Positions 8,950 through 15,931 of a DNA stretch of 64,000 nt are shown here, piece by piece; the stretch's first letter is position 1; each line of letters begins with the position of its first letter. The position numbers and the translations under genes were made by a program. The stretch is from Thermococcus sp. 18S1 (GTDB taxonomy: Archaea > Methanobacteriota_B > Thermococci > Thermococcales > Thermococcaceae). Under the pieces are notes generated by a model, which did not search any database, was not told the DNA's origin, and worked only from the letters and a program-made list of their open reading frames with translations. The stretch is from contig NZ_SNUU01000001.1 of NCBI RefSeq assembly GCF_012027645.1, forward strand, positions 62,001 through 126,000, given 5' to 3'.

Positions 8950-9546
8950 ATGCGTGGATTTCTGGAGTTCCTCAACGAGGGACAGGTCTACGAGGTTCTG
9001 CTCGTCACGAGGTCAAATGCCACCCCAGTGGGCGTTGTAAGGAGAGGAAACAAGCTGTTTTTCAAACTCTTTGGTGGGAAGAGCGCAAGTGAGCTGAGGG
9101 AGCATCCATACGCGTCGGTGCAGATGACCAACGACGTTGAGCTGATAGTAAAGCTCGCCCTCAACCTGCCGGTGGAGCTTGAGTTCGAGAACATGGGAGT
9201 GCACAGGTGGATAAGGGGACTCCCAGGGGTTTATGGGCCGGTTATGCTCGCCGAGGAAGTCTACGAGGACCATCTGGGGAAAACTTCCGTTTTGAAGTGT
9301 TCGCTGGAGCCGGAGGGAACCATTGACGGGAGACTGCCCCCCAAACCACTTAGCAGGGCCGACTGGTACCTCCTGGAGATGGCCGTGGACTTCACTCGGC
9401 TGGGGGTGGCCCGGAGGAACGGGAAGATGGAGGCCGCCAGGAAGTTGCGCGGAAGGATACTCCACAACTATTCATCCTACCTGAGGTTCGGAGGCAGCTC
9501 AGAACTGGCGGAGATTATAATGGCGGCACTGGACGAAAATGGGTAA
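8950..9546 (+). CDS. DUF447 family protein (FMN-binding split-barrel-like)
   Basis: A cytosolic protein of 198 residues matching the archaeal DUF447 family, whose structures resemble FMN-binding split barrels of the flavin reductase type. The N-terminal 110 residues (EVLLVTRSNATPVGVVRRG and following) have the barrel pattern, and the last 80 are helical. It starts 30 bases after the ABC ATPase, with GGTGGTCAC before the ATG, so it may be read with the importer. Its reaction is unknown; a flavin-linked reduction of the imported ligand is only an inference. Confidence 0.75.
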   Translation: MRGFLEFLNEGQVYEVLLVTRSNATPVGVVRRGNKLFFKLFGGKSASELREHPYASVQMTNDVELIVKLALNLPVELEFENMGVHRWIRGLPGVYGPVMLAEEVYEDHLGKTSVLKCSLEPEGTIDGRLPPKPLSRADWYLLEMAVDFTRLGVARRNGKMEAARKLRGRILHNYSSYLRFGGSSELAEIIMAALDENG

Positions 9547-9573
9547 AGGAGCGCCCTTCATACAAGGGAAAGC

Positions 9574-9580
9574 TTATAAC
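9574..9580 (+). promoter_or_regulatory. TATA box of the metallophosphoesterase gene
   Basis: TTATAAC stands 31-37 bases before the ATG at 9611, inside the tail region after the DUF447 gene. It supports 9611, not an earlier in-frame start near 9539, as the true translation start. Confidence 0.55.
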
Positions 9581-9610
9581 CGATTCATTTCAGCTTTTCT
9601 TGGTGATACC

Positions 9611-11620
9611 ATGAAGGCCGGCAAAATTATGGCTCTTTTGGTGGCCCTGCTTGCCATAGCGGCAGTTCCAGTGAGCACTGTCTGGGCCGCTTCAAGCAGC
9701 GTGACACCGGGGGAGATCCTTATTCAGCCGCTCCCGGGGGTCCCAGCGATAGGAAAGCCAGGGGATATAGTTGAAATACACCCCGTCGATGGGGTTGCCA
9801 TCGATTCCCTTCAGATAGTCTCCATACTTCACGGGCCCTACGACCTCCAGATAGTAGGTACGGAGAACGGAGTCATTAAGGCCAAGATACCCGAAGACGC
9901 TGTGCCGGATGATTACTTCCTCGTAGTCAAGAGCAATAAGGGCGAGGTCACGATACCCAACGGCGTGTGGGTCATAAAGGACGCCCCGACGGTTCTCAGG
10001 ATAGCCCACGGCAGCGACCTCCACGTCACGAGCGGCTCAAAGATGGGCTTCGTCTGCGGGGATTACTTCCAGAAGAGCATTCCCGAAATACTCCAGTACT
10101 GTGACCACCCCTACGCGATGCACAGCTACACTGCCACCGACAGCTTCGTGACGTACTACTCCATGACAGGCCTGAGGAGTGAGAACGTCATCAACCTCAT
10201 AATCAGCACGGGCGACGATGTTGATACCAACGGCGACAGCGAGGGCTACAAGATGCTCGACGAGGCAATACTCCACGGTACCGCGGCTGGAACTCCGTTC
10301 ATAAGCATCAAGGGCAACCACGACCACCCGCCGACCTACTACAACAAGTACGTTGGTCCAAGGTACTTCTACGAGGTCATAGGCGACTTCCTCATAATAG
10401 GCCTGGACAGCCGCGGCGAGGAGAGGCACCCCGAACTTGAGCAGCTCCAGTGGATGGAGAACGTGCTTAAGAGCCACCCCAACAAGACGGTCATAGTTCT
10501 CGTTCACCACCCGTTCTGGTACAGCACCCCCGACGGCAAGTGGGGCGGAACCATAAAGGGTTACACGGCCTTTGACGACGGCGACTGGAACGCTCTGACC
10601 AAGTTCATAAGCTGGGACTGGGAGGGCAGAAACGGAGAGTACGACGAGATAGCCAGGTACTTCCTCCAGATGGTCGAGAAGTACAACGTCAGGCTCGTCC
10701 TCAGCGGCCACATCCACAAGGACAAGCCCGTTCTTTACATCGACAAGAACGGCGAGAAGCACTGGTTCTACGCCCTCACCACCACCGGCGCACCCGACAA
10801 GACCAGCAACCCGCCGAGTGAGACCGACAAGCAGAGGGGTTACACTAAACCCAGCTGGTACGGCTCCCAGGTAATCTACGTCTATGACAACGGTACCGTC
10901 GAGTTCCCGCTCGTTTCGGACATGTTTGTACAGGACAAACCGGTTTCCCTCCCCGTTCCGCAGAAGTTCATAGTCTACCGCCAGAACGGCGAGGATGGAA
11001 CCGCGGTCAAGTTCGTGAACGAGCTTGACAACGCCATCAGCGGCCCCATTGTCCTCGAGATACCCGAGGGGGCCAAGGTGGATCCCGAGCACACCAACAT
11101 AACCTACACCGTCCTGGGCGAGAGGGAGATCGGCGGTACATACTACATGCTGCTCAACGTCACCGTCCCCCAGGGCGTCAGCCAGATAACCGTAGTCAAG
11201 TCCCCCGACACCCAGGCGCCCACTGTGGATGTTGGTTATCTCACGCCGAGCAAGCCCCAGCCAGGAAGGCAGTTCAAGGTCTTTATAGCGGCCAAAGATA
11301 ACGTTGGAATCCGGGACATGAAGGTTCAGATAATCTCCGACGGAAAGGTCACAGCGGAGTACCCGGCGTTCTCAATGCAGCCCTCCAAGGTTGATGCAAC
11401 ATACTACACCGAGATTCCGGGCGTTGACACCAGTGAGTTCACCATCAAGGTCATCGCAACCGACTTCTACGGCAACACCGGCGAGACCACCTACACCGTC
11501 GGTGGAAGTGCAACCACCAGCCCGAGCACGACCCAGACGGAGAGCAGCGGAAGCACCTGCGGTCCGGCTCTCATCGTGGGCCTCGCACTCCTCCCAGTTC
11601 TCCTCAGAAAGAGGAAGTGA
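9611..11620 (+). CDS. secreted metallophosphoesterase with CGP-CTERM anchor
   Basis: A 669-residue exported calcineurin-like phosphoesterase. Residues 1-27 are a signal peptide (ending VSTVWA). A beta-rich domain of about 110 residues precedes the catalytic domain, whose metal ligands appear in order: GSDLH, TGDDVD, GNHDH, VHHPF and GHIH. A further Ig-like domain near residues 530-640 carries the chain to a Thr/Ser linker and the tail STCGP-hydrophobic-RKRK, a CGP-CTERM anchor. GGTGATACC precedes ATG 9611. It likely hydrolyses phosphoesters or nucleotides at the cell surface. The tail is nearly the same as that of the protein at 3274. Confidence 0.88.
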   Translation: MKAGKIMALLVALLAIAAVPVSTVWAASSSVTPGEILIQPLPGVPAIGKPGDIVEIHPVDGVAIDSLQIVSILHGPYDLQIVGTENGVIKAKIPEDAVPDDYFLVVKSNKGEVTIPNGVWVIKDAPTVLRIAHGSDLHVTSGSKMGFVCGDYFQKSIPEILQYCDHPYAMHSYTATDSFVTYYSMTGLRSENVINLIISTGDDVDTNGDSEGYKMLDEAILHGTAAGTPFISIKGNHDHPPTYYNKYVGPRYFYEVIGDFLIIGLDSRGEERHPELEQLQWMENVLKSHPNKTVIVLVHHPFWYSTPDGKWGGTIKGYTAFDDGDWNALTKFISWDWEGRNGEYDEIARYFLQMVEKYNVRLVLSGHIHKDKPVLYIDKNGEKHWFYALTTTGAPDKTSNPPSETDKQRGYTKPSWYGSQVIYVYDNGTVEFPLVSDMFVQDKPVSLPVPQKFIVYRQNGEDGTAVKFVNELDNAISGPIVLEIPEGAKVDPEHTNITYTVLGEREIGGTYYMLLNVTVPQGVSQITVVKSPDTQAPTVDVGYLTPSKPQPGRQFKVFIAAKDNVGIRDMKVQIISDGKVTAEYPAFSMQPSKVDATYYTEIPGVDTSEFTIKVIATDFYGNTGETTYTVGGSATTSPSTTQTESSGSTCGPALIVGLALLPVLLRKRK

Positions 11621-11788: not shown

Positions 11789-12412
11789 ATGGTGATGAAG
11801 GTGAAGTTCAAAGGCAAAGCCTTCGGGAACATCGTGAGGATGGAGTTCGACATTCTCACGCTCAGCGAGCTTAAAATAGACGACCTGCGAGACTTTGACG
11901 TTGATTCCATCAAGATCGAACTCAAGCCCACCTCATCCGGCATACGGGTTACCGGCATATGGGAGGGTACCGTCGAGGAAGCCGGAGAGGGAATAAAGAA
12001 GGCCCTCCTTGAGAGCTACAAACTCCGTGAGAAGATTCTCAACAGGATAAAGAGCAAGACGGAGGCAATAAGGAGCACCATGCGTCAGCTTGGCTTCAAG
12101 GAGGAAGTGGAGGGCTACGGAAGTGCGCTGCGCTTTGTCAAGAAGGTCGGCGCCTACGACATAGTCGTCGTCGCCTCAACGACCGACGACGTTGTCAGGG
12201 TAGAGGTTTACGGCAACGACAAGAAGATCCTCAGCCCTGAGCTGGAAAGCATTTTCGAGGACGTCGAGGTGGAAGAGCTGGAGATATACGACTTCGAGGA
12301 CGACAAGGAGGAGCGGCTCGTTATAAACCTCGAGATACCGAAGAACGAAGAAAAGCCAGAGAGGAAGATAATGGAAGCCATCAGGATGATAGAAAGCATG
12401 CTGATGGCCTGA
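11789..12412 (+). CDS. conserved hypothetical protein (Thermococcales)
   Basis: I do not recognise a family. The 207 residues are soluble, rich in Glu and Lys, with an alternating alpha/beta pattern, a long helix around residues 60-100 and an acidic segment near 150-185. TTTTTAAA at 11762-11769 is only 20-27 bases before the ATG at 11789, and no ribosome binding site is seen, so the message is probably leaderless; ATG 11795 is an alternative start. It converges with the Mrr/PepSY-repeat gene, the two stop codons being adjacent. Confidence 0.65.
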   Translation: MVMKVKFKGKAFGNIVRMEFDILTLSELKIDDLRDFDVDSIKIELKPTSSGIRVTGIWEGTVEEAGEGIKKALLESYKLREKILNRIKSKTEAIRSTMRQLGFKEEVEGYGSALRFVKKVGAYDIVVVASTTDDVVRVEVYGNDKKILSPELESIFEDVEVEELEIYDFEDDKEERLVINLEIPKNEEKPERKIMEAIRMIESMLMA

Positions 12413-14551
12413 TCACTTGTATTTGCTGTCCAGCTGAAGCTGCTTCAGCTTTGCAGTTATTCCCTTTGTCGGCGCCCTGTCTTCACTTATTATCTTCCCG
12501 GTTCTTGTGTCTATTCTCGCGTAGTAAAGGGTCTCCTTCCCCGCCACCTTGATGTGGACGTAGCCCCTCTCCTCGTAGAGGACGAGGCGCTCCACTGCAG
12601 GCTGTTCTTCCTTGTATTTCTCCCTCACATGCGCGAGGTAGGACTCTTTTATCGCCATCTCCGTGAAGCGGACGTCGCTCTTCAGAACCTCCCCAGTGGT
12701 TCTGTGAAGGACGAACCTCCCGACCTTCGTTCTTCCGGCGAATTCGACCTCCCAGTTCTCGTTGAGCGTTACGGATCTTATCACAGCCTCCTCGTCTATC
12801 TCCTTCGCGGCATCAACTGCTATCCTCTCTGCTAGGTCCCTTCTCAGAACACGGTCCGTCTCCTCGATGAGCTTGCCGTCCCTGCTGACCCTGACGGTTA
12901 CCCTGTGGCGGTCGTTCTCGGCGGTAACGGTGTATTCGGTTTCTGTGCCCTCTACGGACTTTATCTCAAAGTCTGGATACTTCTCGGAGACTATCTCCTC
13001 CGCCCTGTCGGGCGTCACCTCGACGAGGTAGTCGAGGACGTCCCCCGTGGAGCCGTCCACCTTCACGACGGCATTTCCATCCGCGCTCTCAAGAACCAGC
13101 TCCAGGTACTTGTGCTCCAGCACACGGTATGATTCCATGACCAGGTCTCTCAGCGGAAAGTTGCCCTCTATGACAGTCCTGGCGTTTTCGAAGGCGTCTT
13201 CGGGTGATGGAAGTCTCCTGACCTCCTCGTAGCTGCCGTCTGTGAGATCGACGCTGACAACGACCACGCCCCCATCCAGTAGTATGTCCGCGATGGCGGC
13301 CTTCTTGCCCTTCTCGAGGTTGATGACCCTGCCCTGCGGATAGGCATTTCTCAGGAGTTCACTGAGGGCATCGTCGCTCATGAGAGCTTCCATACCAAGA
13401 AGCCTGCCTGTGTAGCCGTTGAACTGGGCCTCAAATGAGAAGCGCTCCGTCTTTCCAGATACCTTAACCTTCCCGTTTGTTCTCTTGAGCTCGTACTCGC
13501 CGATTTCCTCCCCGGTCTGCTTCCGAACGATATCCCGAACCCTCTCAACGAAGTAGTTATCGGGCAGGGGGTTCATCTCGAAGGTTACCTCTCCGCGCTC
13601 CAGATCGACCCTGGCCCCGGCCAGGTTTTCACCCACCCGAACCTCGAGTCTGGCCTCTTTGGGAACGTAGACCTTCTTCCTCTCGTGGATGGTCACCCGG
13701 CCCTCTGGAACGCCGAGCTCCTTTGCGGCGACGGCCTTAAGGACGAAGACCGCCTCGCTTGGGCTTAAGGGAACCTCCACCTCACGCTCCGTGGCGTGGA
13801 TAATCGAGCTGTCGTTCAGAAGGGCCTTGGTTACGGGAACGCTCAGGTTCTTGTCCTGCGTTGCCCTGAGGACTATGCGGTCCTCGGAAAACACCACCGC
13901 CTTGTCCTTCTCCCCATCACCCTCGACGGACCAGGAGAATATGTACGCACTGGACAGGGAGACTGAGATGGACTCGAGCTTCACCTCCTCCGGTTTCACG
14001 GGGTATTTGGAAGCCGCGAACGAGGCCACTTTTCCGAGCACGGCCTCTGGTGAAAAATCATGGAGAAGCGGGGCATCGAGCTCGAACTCCTCCAGAGGAC
14101 CTTCTTCCTCCCCCGCCTCTGTCTCAGCCTTAAGCCGCTCCACAAGATCGGCGGGCGGTTCCATCCGGTAGTTGTTGAACAGGGAGGCGAGCTTCTCGCC
14201 GTCCCACGGAACCACCCTCCCGCGGTGCTCCCGGGATATTAGAACCTTGGCGTCCTTCGTGAATCCTGCGGGGGATATTAGTATTCCCTTATCCGCCTTG
14301 TATTTGTTCACCAGGTCAGCGAAGACGTTGATGTCCCTCGAAGAAGCCAGTCCCTTAGGGTGAATCGCCAGAACAACTTTCTCGATCCCTGCTATGGGGT
14401 CATCCCTTATTGCCACGATGTCTATTCCCCACTCCTTCCTGCCCGCCACCCTCTCGTAGTCCCTGAAGCCCATTCTCTTCAGCAGCTCGATTACGTCTTC
14501 AACAAGCGTTTCCCTGTGTGCAAGCCTTATTAAATCCTGGGTCCACGGCAT
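12413..14551 (-). CDS. Mrr-like nuclease-fold domain fused to tandem PepSY-like repeats
   Basis: A 712-residue cytosolic protein without signal or membrane segments. Residues 1-130 look like an Mrr/restriction endonuclease domain: GIDIVAIRDD supplies the first acidic residue (Asp44), and the segment where families have QxK or ExK reads IHPKG (His64, Lys66), followed by the usual SPAGFTKDAKVL helix. Residues 170-710 look like five to six repeats of about 75 residues, each a helix then beta strands ending in a TGxV or similar turn, resembling PepSY/YpeB-type modules. GGTGAGACTG precedes ATG 14551. It diverges from pgk. The combination is unusual; DNA cleavage is unproven given the altered site. 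Confidence 0.7.
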   Translation of the reverse strand: MPWTQDLIRLAHRETLVEDVIELLKRMGFRDYERVAGRKEWGIDIVAIRDDPIAGIEKVVLAIHPKGLASSRDINVFADLVNKYKADKGILISPAGFTKDAKVLISREHRGRVVPWDGEKLASLFNNYRMEPPADLVERLKAETEAGEEEGPLEEFELDAPLLHDFSPEAVLGKVASFAASKYPVKPEEVKLESISVSLSSAYIFSWSVEGDGEKDKAVVFSEDRIVLRATQDKNLSVPVTKALLNDSSIIHATEREVEVPLSPSEAVFVLKAVAAKELGVPEGRVTIHERKKVYVPKEARLEVRVGENLAGARVDLERGEVTFEMNPLPDNYFVERVRDIVRKQTGEEIGEYELKRTNGKVKVSGKTERFSFEAQFNGYTGRLLGMEALMSDDALSELLRNAYPQGRVINLEKGKKAAIADILLDGGVVVVSVDLTDGSYEEVRRLPSPEDAFENARTVIEGNFPLRDLVMESYRVLEHKYLELVLESADGNAVVKVDGSTGDVLDYLVEVTPDRAEEIVSEKYPDFEIKSVEGTETEYTVTAENDRHRVTVRVSRDGKLIEETDRVLRRDLAERIAVDAAKEIDEEAVIRSVTLNENWEVEFAGRTKVGRFVLHRTTGEVLKSDVRFTEMAIKESYLAHVREKYKEEQPAVERLVLYEERGYVHIKVAGKETLYYARIDTRTGKIISEDRAPTKGITAKLKQLQLDSKYK

Positions 14552-14631
14552 CAGTCTCACCCATGAAAGTGAAGTCCATTATCACGGTTCTTTCGTCTTT
14601 ATTTTATAAATCTCTTTCCCTGGAGCGCTGT

Positions 14632-14695: not shown

Positions 14696-15931
14696 ATGTT
14701 CAGGCTCACCGACTTTGACTATCACGGAAAAACCGTCTTTCTGAGGGCAGACCTAAATTCGCCGGTCACTGACGGGAAGATAATCAGCGACGCCAGGTTT
14801 AAAGCGGTTCTCCCGACAATAATATACCTCCTCGAGCACGGGGCTAAACTCATCATAGGAACTCACCAGAGCAAGCCTTACAAAGGGGACTACATCACCA
14901 CGGAGCAGCACGCTGAGATACTGAGCGGGTTGCTCGGCCAAGAAGTGGAGTATGTTGAGGATATCTTTGGAAAATACGCCCGCGAGAAGATAACGGCGCT
15001 GAAACCCGGAGAGGCCATCATGTTGGAAAACCTCCGCTTCGCCGCGGAAGAGGTCAAATACAAGCCCATTGATGATTGCGAGAAGACGTTTTTCGTGAGA
15101 AAACTTGCACCTCTGATAGATTACGTCGTGAACGATGCCTTCGCAGCGACCCACCGCTCCCAGCCTTCCCTGGTGGGTTTCGCAAGATTGAAGCCCATGA
15201 TAATGGGCTTTCTCATGGAGAAGGAAGTTCAGGCACTCACAAGGGCATACGAGACCCAGGAGAAGCCGAGGGTCTACGTGCTCGGCGGTGCGAAGGTTGA
15301 TGACTCCCTCCGCGTGGCGGAGAACGTGCTGAGGAACGGCAGGGCGGAGGTCATACTGACCGGTGGTCTCGTCGGCCACGTCTTCACCCTCGCCAAGGGC
15401 TTCCACCTCGGCGACTCTAACCTCGAGTTCATGGAGAGGAAGGGCCTTCTCGAACTGGTGGACTGGGCAGAGGAGATACTCAACGAGTTCTATCCCTACG
15501 TGAGGACCCCCGTTGATTTTGCCGTGGACTACAAGGGTGAGCGCGTCGAAGTTGATTTGCTGAGCGAGGAGAAGTGGCTCTTCGACGAGCACCCGATACT
15601 CGACATAGGCTCAAGAACCGTTGAGAAGTACCGCGAGGTGCTCATGGGGGCGAAGATAATAGTCGCCAACGGGCCGATGGGCGTCTTCGAGCGCGAGGAG
15701 TTCGCGGTAGGTACGGTCGGGGTTTTCAGGGCGATAGGTGAGAGCCCTGCCTTCAGCATAGTCGGGGGAGGTCACTCGATAGCCAGCATATACCAGCACA
15801 ACATAACGGGCATAAGCCACGTCTCCACAGGCGGCGGCGCGATGCTGAGCTTCTTCGCCGGTGAAAAGCTCCCGGTTCTGGAGGCGTTCAAGGAGAGCTA
15901 CGAACGCTTTAAAGACCTGCTCGAAGGGTGA
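14696..15931 (+). CDS. pgk: phosphoglycerate kinase
   Basis: Interconverts 1,3-bisphosphoglycerate plus ADP with 3-phosphoglycerate plus ATP. The 411 residues match the archaeal enzyme: an N-terminal substrate motif (FLRADLNSPVTDGKI), the hinge region, LGGAKVDDSLRVAEN in the nucleotide domain, and the GGGHSIA loop. In Thermococcales, sugar breakdown bypasses this step via GAPOR, so the enzyme serves mainly gluconeogenesis; this agrees with the regulatory site upstream of its TATA box. ATG 14696 has GGTGATGGA before it. Its 3' end overlaps the convergent membrane-protein gene by 23 bases. Confidence 0.95.
   Translation: MFRLTDFDYHGKTVFLRADLNSPVTDGKIISDARFKAVLPTIIYLLEHGAKLIIGTHQSKPYKGDYITTEQHAEILSGLLGQEVEYVEDIFGKYAREKITALKPGEAIMLENLRFAAEEVKYKPIDDCEKTFFVRKLAPLIDYVVNDAFAATHRSQPSLVGFARLKPMIMGFLMEKEVQALTRAYETQEKPRVYVLGGAKVDDSLRVAENVLRNGRAEVILTGGLVGHVFTLAKGFHLGDSNLEFMERKGLLELVDWAEEILNEFYPYVRTPVDFAVDYKGERVEVDLLSEEKWLFDEHPILDIGSRTVEKYREVLMGAKIIVANGPMGVFEREEFAVGTVGVFRAIGESPAFSIVGGGHSIASIYQHNITGISHVSTGGGAMLSFFAGEKLPVLEAFKESYERFKDLLEG

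Follow-up and report, generated by a model that had tools for sequence, protein, structure and literature searches.

The gene divergent from pgk and its surroundings

The question raised by this locus is what a restriction-enzyme fold joined to a chain of PepSY-type modules might be doing inside an archaeal cell, and whether the nuclease part of such a protein can still cut. The gene lies in a 64,000-nucleotide stretch of Thermococcus sp. 18S1 DNA, here called the window. An intact reading frame of 712 codons runs from 14551 to 12413 on the minus strand and encodes a protein of 712 amino acids. Its start codon is the ATG at 14551. A GGTGA ribosome-binding site 5 nt ahead of it and a TATA-like box support this assignment; both signals were found again upstream of close orthologues, becoming less regular in the distant ones.

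12413 to 14551, minus strand: whole gene for the protein with Mrr-like domain and PepSY array, 712 aa (intact reading frame; only copy in the 1.99-Mb genome)
14556 to 14611, minus strand: promoter and ribosome-binding region, with TATA-like ATTTATAAAAT at 14601-14611 and GGTGAG at 14556-14561 (direct reading of the sequence)

As a preliminary description of this DNA had stated, the gene is divergent from pgk (14696-15931). On the other side it is convergent, tail to tail, with a gene for a 207-aa protein (11789-12412, plus strand). With one neighbour divergent and the other convergent there is no operon clue to a partner, and no conserved co-transcribed partner of the gene was found.

The stop codons of the two convergent genes touch, with 0 bases between them. 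In many Thermococcus the 207-aa gene is over 80% identical, and it stands beside the Mrr-PepSY gene in most relatives; neither Pfam nor NCBIfam has a family that matches it above threshold, and a weak similarity to RNA polymerase subunit L (E 0.02), also below threshold, is probably due to chance. Further along (9539-11620, plus strand) is a calcineurin-type phosphoesterase whose N-terminus resembles a signal peptide and which carries a CGP-CTERM anchor; it is syntenic with the Mrr-PepSY gene in many relatives at an identity that varies from 43 to 81%.

The N-terminal domain has an Mrr fold and an altered active site

The preliminary description had read the first 130 residues as an Mrr/restriction-type fold with Asp44 in place, and here the sequence profiles and the predicted structure agree with it.

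14162 to 14551, minus strand: N-terminal Mrr/restriction-endonuclease-like domain, residues 1-130 (Pfam Mrr_cat and NA-iREase1; fold match)
14420 to 14422, minus strand: codon of Asp44, the retained metal-ligand Asp of the family (D in 49/51 orthologues, E in 2/51)
14360 to 14368, minus strand: codons of Ala62-Ile63-His64, the equivalent of QxK (alignment to two Mrr proteins with an intact motif)

Residues 20-124 match the Pfam family Mrr_cat (PF04471) with an E-value of 1.5e-14 and 54.5 bits, where the cut-off is 21; the domain extends over about residues 10-130. NA-iREase1 (PF22722) matches at 7e-7 (29.6 bits against a cut-off of 27). Mrr_cat was found in all 34 of the orthologues scanned, as was NA-iREase1 at E≤0.1. 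In the AlphaFold model, which has a mean pLDDT of 88.9 and a whole-chain pTM of 0.48 that leaves the relative placement of the domains uncertain, the N-terminal domain fits phage restriction-endonuclease models with an rmsd of 1.9-2.9 A over 118-135 columns, and its fold is thus related to that of the PD-(D/E)XK nucleases. Membership of the Mrr_cat domain family is statistically clear for residues ~10-130, by sequence and by fold. The family has invariant features of its own, namely a hairpin R49-x-D51-P52-x-x-G55-x-E57-K58, T98-K99-D100 and W116, and the net charge of the domain is only +3. For residues 1-130, 13 of 14 pairs gave a dN/dS of 0.01-0.13 and the remaining one gave 0.22 (dS being saturated in some pairs), and the domain is therefore maintained rather than decaying.

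The active site had been described as altered, with His64-Pro65-Lys66 in place of QxK. The alteration is real, but this assignment is out of register by two residues. The register was set by aligning the family profile to two Mrr proteins whose motif is complete. One, from a Pseudoalteromonas plasmid, is annotated as a restriction endonuclease (GLEMIYLQAKRY; 'LQAKRY'), and the other is an archaeal Mrr_cat protein (EKTAVQAKRY; 'VQAKRY'). The Q-A-K of both falls on columns 62-63-64, where the window protein has A-I-H, so that the true equivalent of QxK is Ala62-Ile63-His64. Lys66, earlier taken as a motif residue, is not conserved, being K in 27 of 51 orthologues and otherwise G, R, D or E among others. 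Column 62 holds A in 24 orthologues, K in 22, L in 3, R in 1 and S in 1, and in none of the 51 is it Q, E or D; column 64 is H in 38 and K in 13, and nothing else. By genus, three have Lys at position 64, and Thermococcus and one other have His. The root of the family not being fixed, the likely order of events is that the Q/E ligand was lost before the genera split and that Lys then changed to His in one part of the family. An active Mrr enzyme requires D...(Q/E)xK, of which D44 is kept and the Q/E is absent from all 51 orthologues; judged from these motifs, the domain probably does not function as a nuclease.

Eight PepSY-type modules and a conserved terminal helix

In the AlphaFold model an acidic linker leads from the N-terminal domain into eight modules, each of a helix and an antiparallel sheet (residues 165-696), which are followed by a conserved C-terminal helix.

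14060 to 14161, minus strand: acidic linker, residues 131-164 (predicted disordered at 144-150, where pLDDT is <50; net charge −10)
13844 to 14059, minus strand: PepSY-type module R1, residues 165-236, irregular (AlphaFold secondary structure)
13565 to 13774, minus strand: PepSY-type module R2, residues 260-329, irregular (AlphaFold secondary structure)
13379 to 13564, minus strand: PepSY-type module R3, residues 330-391 (helix and 4 strands)
13208 to 13378, minus strand: PepSY-type module R4, residues 392-448 (helix and 4 strands; profile match to R6)
13016 to 13207, minus strand: PepSY-type module R5, residues 449-512 (helix and 4 strands)
12845 to 13015, minus strand: PepSY-type module R6, residues 513-569 (helix and 4 strands; PepSY_like stretch)
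12665 to 12844, minus strand: PepSY-type module R7, residues 570-629 (helix and 4 strands)
12464 to 12664, minus strand: PepSY-type module R8, residues 630-696 (best Pfam PepSY match in orthologues)
12416 to 12463, minus strand: C-terminal helix, residues 697-712 (best conserved segment; common to the paralogue described below)

Tandem repeats of PepSY/YpeB type had been predicted, and the type of module was right, although the number is eight rather than five or six. Residues 449-712 modelled alone gave a pLDDT of 94.7, and this C-terminal model matches both 5boi and 3u1w: in the Foldseek search of R5-R8 the YpeB C-terminal domain (5boi) and the PepSY_like-type 3u1w had the highest TM-scores listed, yet modest ones (0.18-0.24), in a list that also holds spurious beta-propellers. 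The propellers, which were found again with the whole model against the PDB (TM 0.08, rmsd >30 A), were rejected as an artefact of repeated strands. The helix-plus-sheet topology is that reported for the PepSY/DUF2874/BLIP group (PMC2954215). Matches to PepSY (PF03413) and PepSY_like were weak and below the Pfam cut-off in the window protein; in orthologues the cut-off was exceeded (5e-7, 30.4 bits against 24). Sequence likeness between modules is low, R4 and R6 being the best pair (hhalign probability 82-86%) and several pairs negligible. The net charge of residues 165-696 is about −22. The terminal helix has a mean identity of 71% within the pgk-linked group of proteins (clade A) and of 46% between this group and its paralogue (clade B).

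Neither a signal peptide nor a membrane span was found by hydropathy in the 712-aa protein, whose highest 19-residue value (1.83) falls within predicted strands of the array, and it contains 0 cysteines. From the absence of such segments we infer that the protein is probably cytoplasmic; the sequence thus appears to lack the secreted or membrane-anchored location that is typical of PepSY/YpeB proteins. A conventional PepSY protein of the Thermococcaceae (locus L132, 1372-2019, minus strand, 215 aa) has an N-terminal hydrophobic segment. Short reading frames of this sort that match PepSY occur in a minority of Thermococcaceae and are absent from the genome of the window.

Vertical inheritance with repeated loss

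The family is present in 64 of the 115 genomes of the class, all of them Thermococcaceae and from five genera (the search set for the phylum consists of the same 115 genomes). Pattern scans of 84,980 species gave no relatives beyond the Thermococcaceae/Thermococcales, a search that may overlook distant relatives whose motifs have changed. Scanning genome contigs with the single protein gave no match, and the alignment was used as the query instead. Clade A adjoins pgk in nearly all loci with the flank covered (the exceptions are L033 and L037) and usually has the 207-aa gene on the other side. No defence, conflict or modification-enzyme genes and no other restriction partners were seen among the conserved flanking genes. 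Viral contigs and phage records held no relative of the protein, and plasmids gave only weak matches to the Mrr domain, at about 30% identity.

Four genomes have pgk next to the 207-aa gene, 70-253 bp apart, with no trace of the gene between them, and in a fifth (G080) only short remnants are left, corresponding to residues 615-648 and 694-712. On the pgk tree at least 7 changes of the state 'absent' and 4 of the state 'broken' are required. The distribution is thus patchy because of repeated loss: the gene has been vertically inherited and repeatedly lost or broken, with no sign of horizontal spread, and is dispensable in some lineages. Its conserved synteny differs from the patchy, horizontally moved and defence-linked pattern of a mobile defence system. 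Where the gene is kept it is under constraint, with full-length frames in the 51 orthologues sampled and a whole-protein dN/dS of about 0.1 (14 pairs).

The orthologues in G041 and L085 are split in two frames near residues 414-447 (split sites at about 7360-7393 in L067 and about 5060 in L085), which probably reflects frameshift decay or sequencing error. A programmed frameshift in these two was rejected, since other broken copies carry many lesions; recoding at residues 414-447 may occur.

A paralogue near purA has lost the centre of the Mrr domain

A second clade (clade B; loci L051-L066), with 30-34% identity to clade A, is fixed between purA (adenylosuccinate synthetase) and an alpha/beta-hydrolase (lysophospholipase-like) gene. 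Its N-terminal domain is degenerate, with Asp44 and the QxK strand lost, and the array and C-terminal helix are kept; it is closest to clade A in R6, R7 and that helix. Within clade A the mean identity is 58% for the N-terminal domain against 42-58% for each module, and dN/dS of the domain is lower in most pairs.

What the protein may do

The computed results are the architecture, the loss of the motif, the purifying selection and the vertical inheritance with repeated loss. The reading that we tentatively prefer, while holding it with less than even confidence, is that the N-terminal domain is a non-cleaving binder of nucleic acid or of a nucleotide and that the array and terminal helix hold a client protein. 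The protein would be a two-part adaptor, specific to the Thermococcaceae and probably cytoplasmic. Its Mrr-type domain has kept the restriction-endonuclease fold and Asp44 and has lost the catalytic Q/E and, in Thermococcus, also the Lys (His64), and for this reason would most likely bind DNA or nucleotide without cleavage; inactive restriction endonucleases have been proposed as non-cleaving nucleic-acid sensors or decoys (PMC12839542). The acidic eight-module array, ending in the conserved helix, would by analogy most likely bind and restrain or scaffold a protein partner, as PepSY, YpeB and BLIP-type modules do elsewhere: those of the PepSY/DUF2874/BLIP group are described as inhibitory binding modules (PMC2954215), and enzymes that pair with PepSY/YpeB modules are stabilised or inhibited by them (PMC6660665, PMC2954215). 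Binding of nucleic acid may then be coupled to holding or releasing the client. In favour of the adaptor we count the paralogue in which array and helix are kept while Asp44 and the QxK strand are gone; against it stand the low charge of the N-terminal domain, the want of a conserved co-transcribed partner, the uncertain placement of the domains in the model, and a conservation of Asp44 and His/Lys64 that leaves room for weak or changed catalysis.

Ranking just below the adaptor, and nearly as likely, is a purely structural or protein-protein role, in which both halves bind without nucleic acid, as in an intracellular regulator of a protease or chaperone, and the Mrr fold is a scaffold. The same purA-linked paralogue speaks for this possibility, and PepSY proteins are known regulators of peptidases and lytic enzymes (PMC6660665, PMC2954215). 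However, the N-terminal domain of clade A is constrained at least as much as the array, and the surface of the restriction-endonuclease-like domain therefore matters in that clade. A more specific version of the adaptor is less likely. In it a non-cleaving Mrr domain with a D...H site would bring an eight-module PepSY array to DNA inside the cell, or would switch it in response to a nucleotide, and the array would restrain a cytoplasmic protease or DNA-processing enzyme; such a protein would be a kind of archaeal regulator not described before.

It is unlikely that the protein is still a nuclease with a rearranged centre, in which a single metal ion is bound by Asp44 and His64 (in the deeper genera Lys64) and the array serves as a specificity or autoinhibitory domain. 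Motif swaps and migrated lysines are compatible with activity in PD-(D/E)XK enzymes, the N-terminal domain is under strong purifying selection, and the conservation of Asp44 and His/Lys64 is higher than a wholly inert site would be expected to show, so that weak or changed catalysis is possible. Against this, no orthologue has the second ligand Q/E62, in whose place A, K, L, R or S is found; the paralogous clade lacks the whole centre while keeping the remainder; and the conserved genes on either side showed neither a modification enzyme nor another restriction partner.

The preliminary description had also suggested an anti-element protein or decoy nuclease, and a defence factor of this kind (type IV restriction-like or decoy) is more doubtful still. 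The weak PADLOC matches that point to it (PDC-S02 and mREase_IV, 2e-6 to 2e-3) are confined to the Mrr domain; repeated loss is common among defence genes, and inactive restriction endonucleases do occur as decoys (PMC12839542). The gene, however, occupies a fixed housekeeping locus beside pgk, and usually the 207-aa gene too, in the genera that carry it, is vertically inherited and has neither defence genes alongside nor relatives in viral contigs or phage records (in plasmids only the weak Mrr-domain matches), which leaves the anti-element suggestion with little support. A DNA-end sensor, likewise proposed in the preliminary description, or a decoy may still be considered. That the gene is a decaying relic without present function, as the broken copies in several genomes, the remnant in G080 and the clean losses elsewhere might suggest, is very improbable in view of the low whole-protein dN/dS, the full-length frames in the orthologues sampled and the invariant signature residues.

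Should the reading as a nucleic-acid-tethered inhibitor be true, an uncharacterised protein family would gain a function, in hyperthermophiles that are open to genetic work, and it would be seen how a restriction-enzyme fold can be turned into a non-cleaving sensor; the series across genera, with D kept, Q/E lost and K changed to H, would be a natural record of the change from nuclease to sensor.

Comparison with known systems

Both halves of the protein are of known kinds, and it is their combination that would be new. Comparison of the protein and of two profiles with the sequences in the PDB yielded chance matches only, NCBIfam and PHROGs hold no family for it, and the open-access literature yielded no paper joining PepSY, Mrr and archaea and nothing under the presumed T. 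kodakarensis neighbour locus tags. The fusion, absent from the sequence libraries, PDB entries, phage models and open-access papers searched, may thus be new. PepSY modules are otherwise extracytoplasmic, and here they stand in a probably cytoplasmic protein.

With Mrr_cat (PF04471, PD-(D/E)XK) the N-terminal domain shares the fold, Asp44 in GxD and the F-T/S-K-x-A segment, but it lacks the catalytic Q/E, has His for the catalytic Lys in Thermococcus, is without the N-terminal winged helix and has the invariant hairpin R-x-D-P-x-x-G-x-E-K. It resembles NA-iREase1 (PF22722, NACHT-associated inactive restriction endonuclease) in its significant match, its restriction-endonuclease fold and its degenerate active site, and so has the conserved domain, fold and degenerate motif of the inactive restriction endonuclease class. 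Unlike NA-iREase1, it has no NACHT/STAND NTPase, and its setting is a housekeeping locus of a single gene, not a conflict system; an association with an NTPase or conflict system was looked for in the domains of the protein and in the conserved flanking genes, and was not seen.

The array has the tandem helix and four-stranded antiparallel sheet of PepSY and the YpeB C-terminal domain (PF03413; 5boi), with Pfam and Foldseek matches. It differs in having eight modules rather than two or three, a fused nuclease fold and no detected signal peptide or membrane anchor, and the overall superposition on 5boi is weak (TM 0.21-0.24), presumably because the modules pack differently. With the PepSY_like/DUF2874/BLIP group (PF11396; 3u1w, BVU2987) it shares module topology and overall acidity, the concave face of BVU2987 being acidic (PMC2954215), whereas the members of that group consist of two modules and no other domain and are found in the periplasm (PMC2954215).
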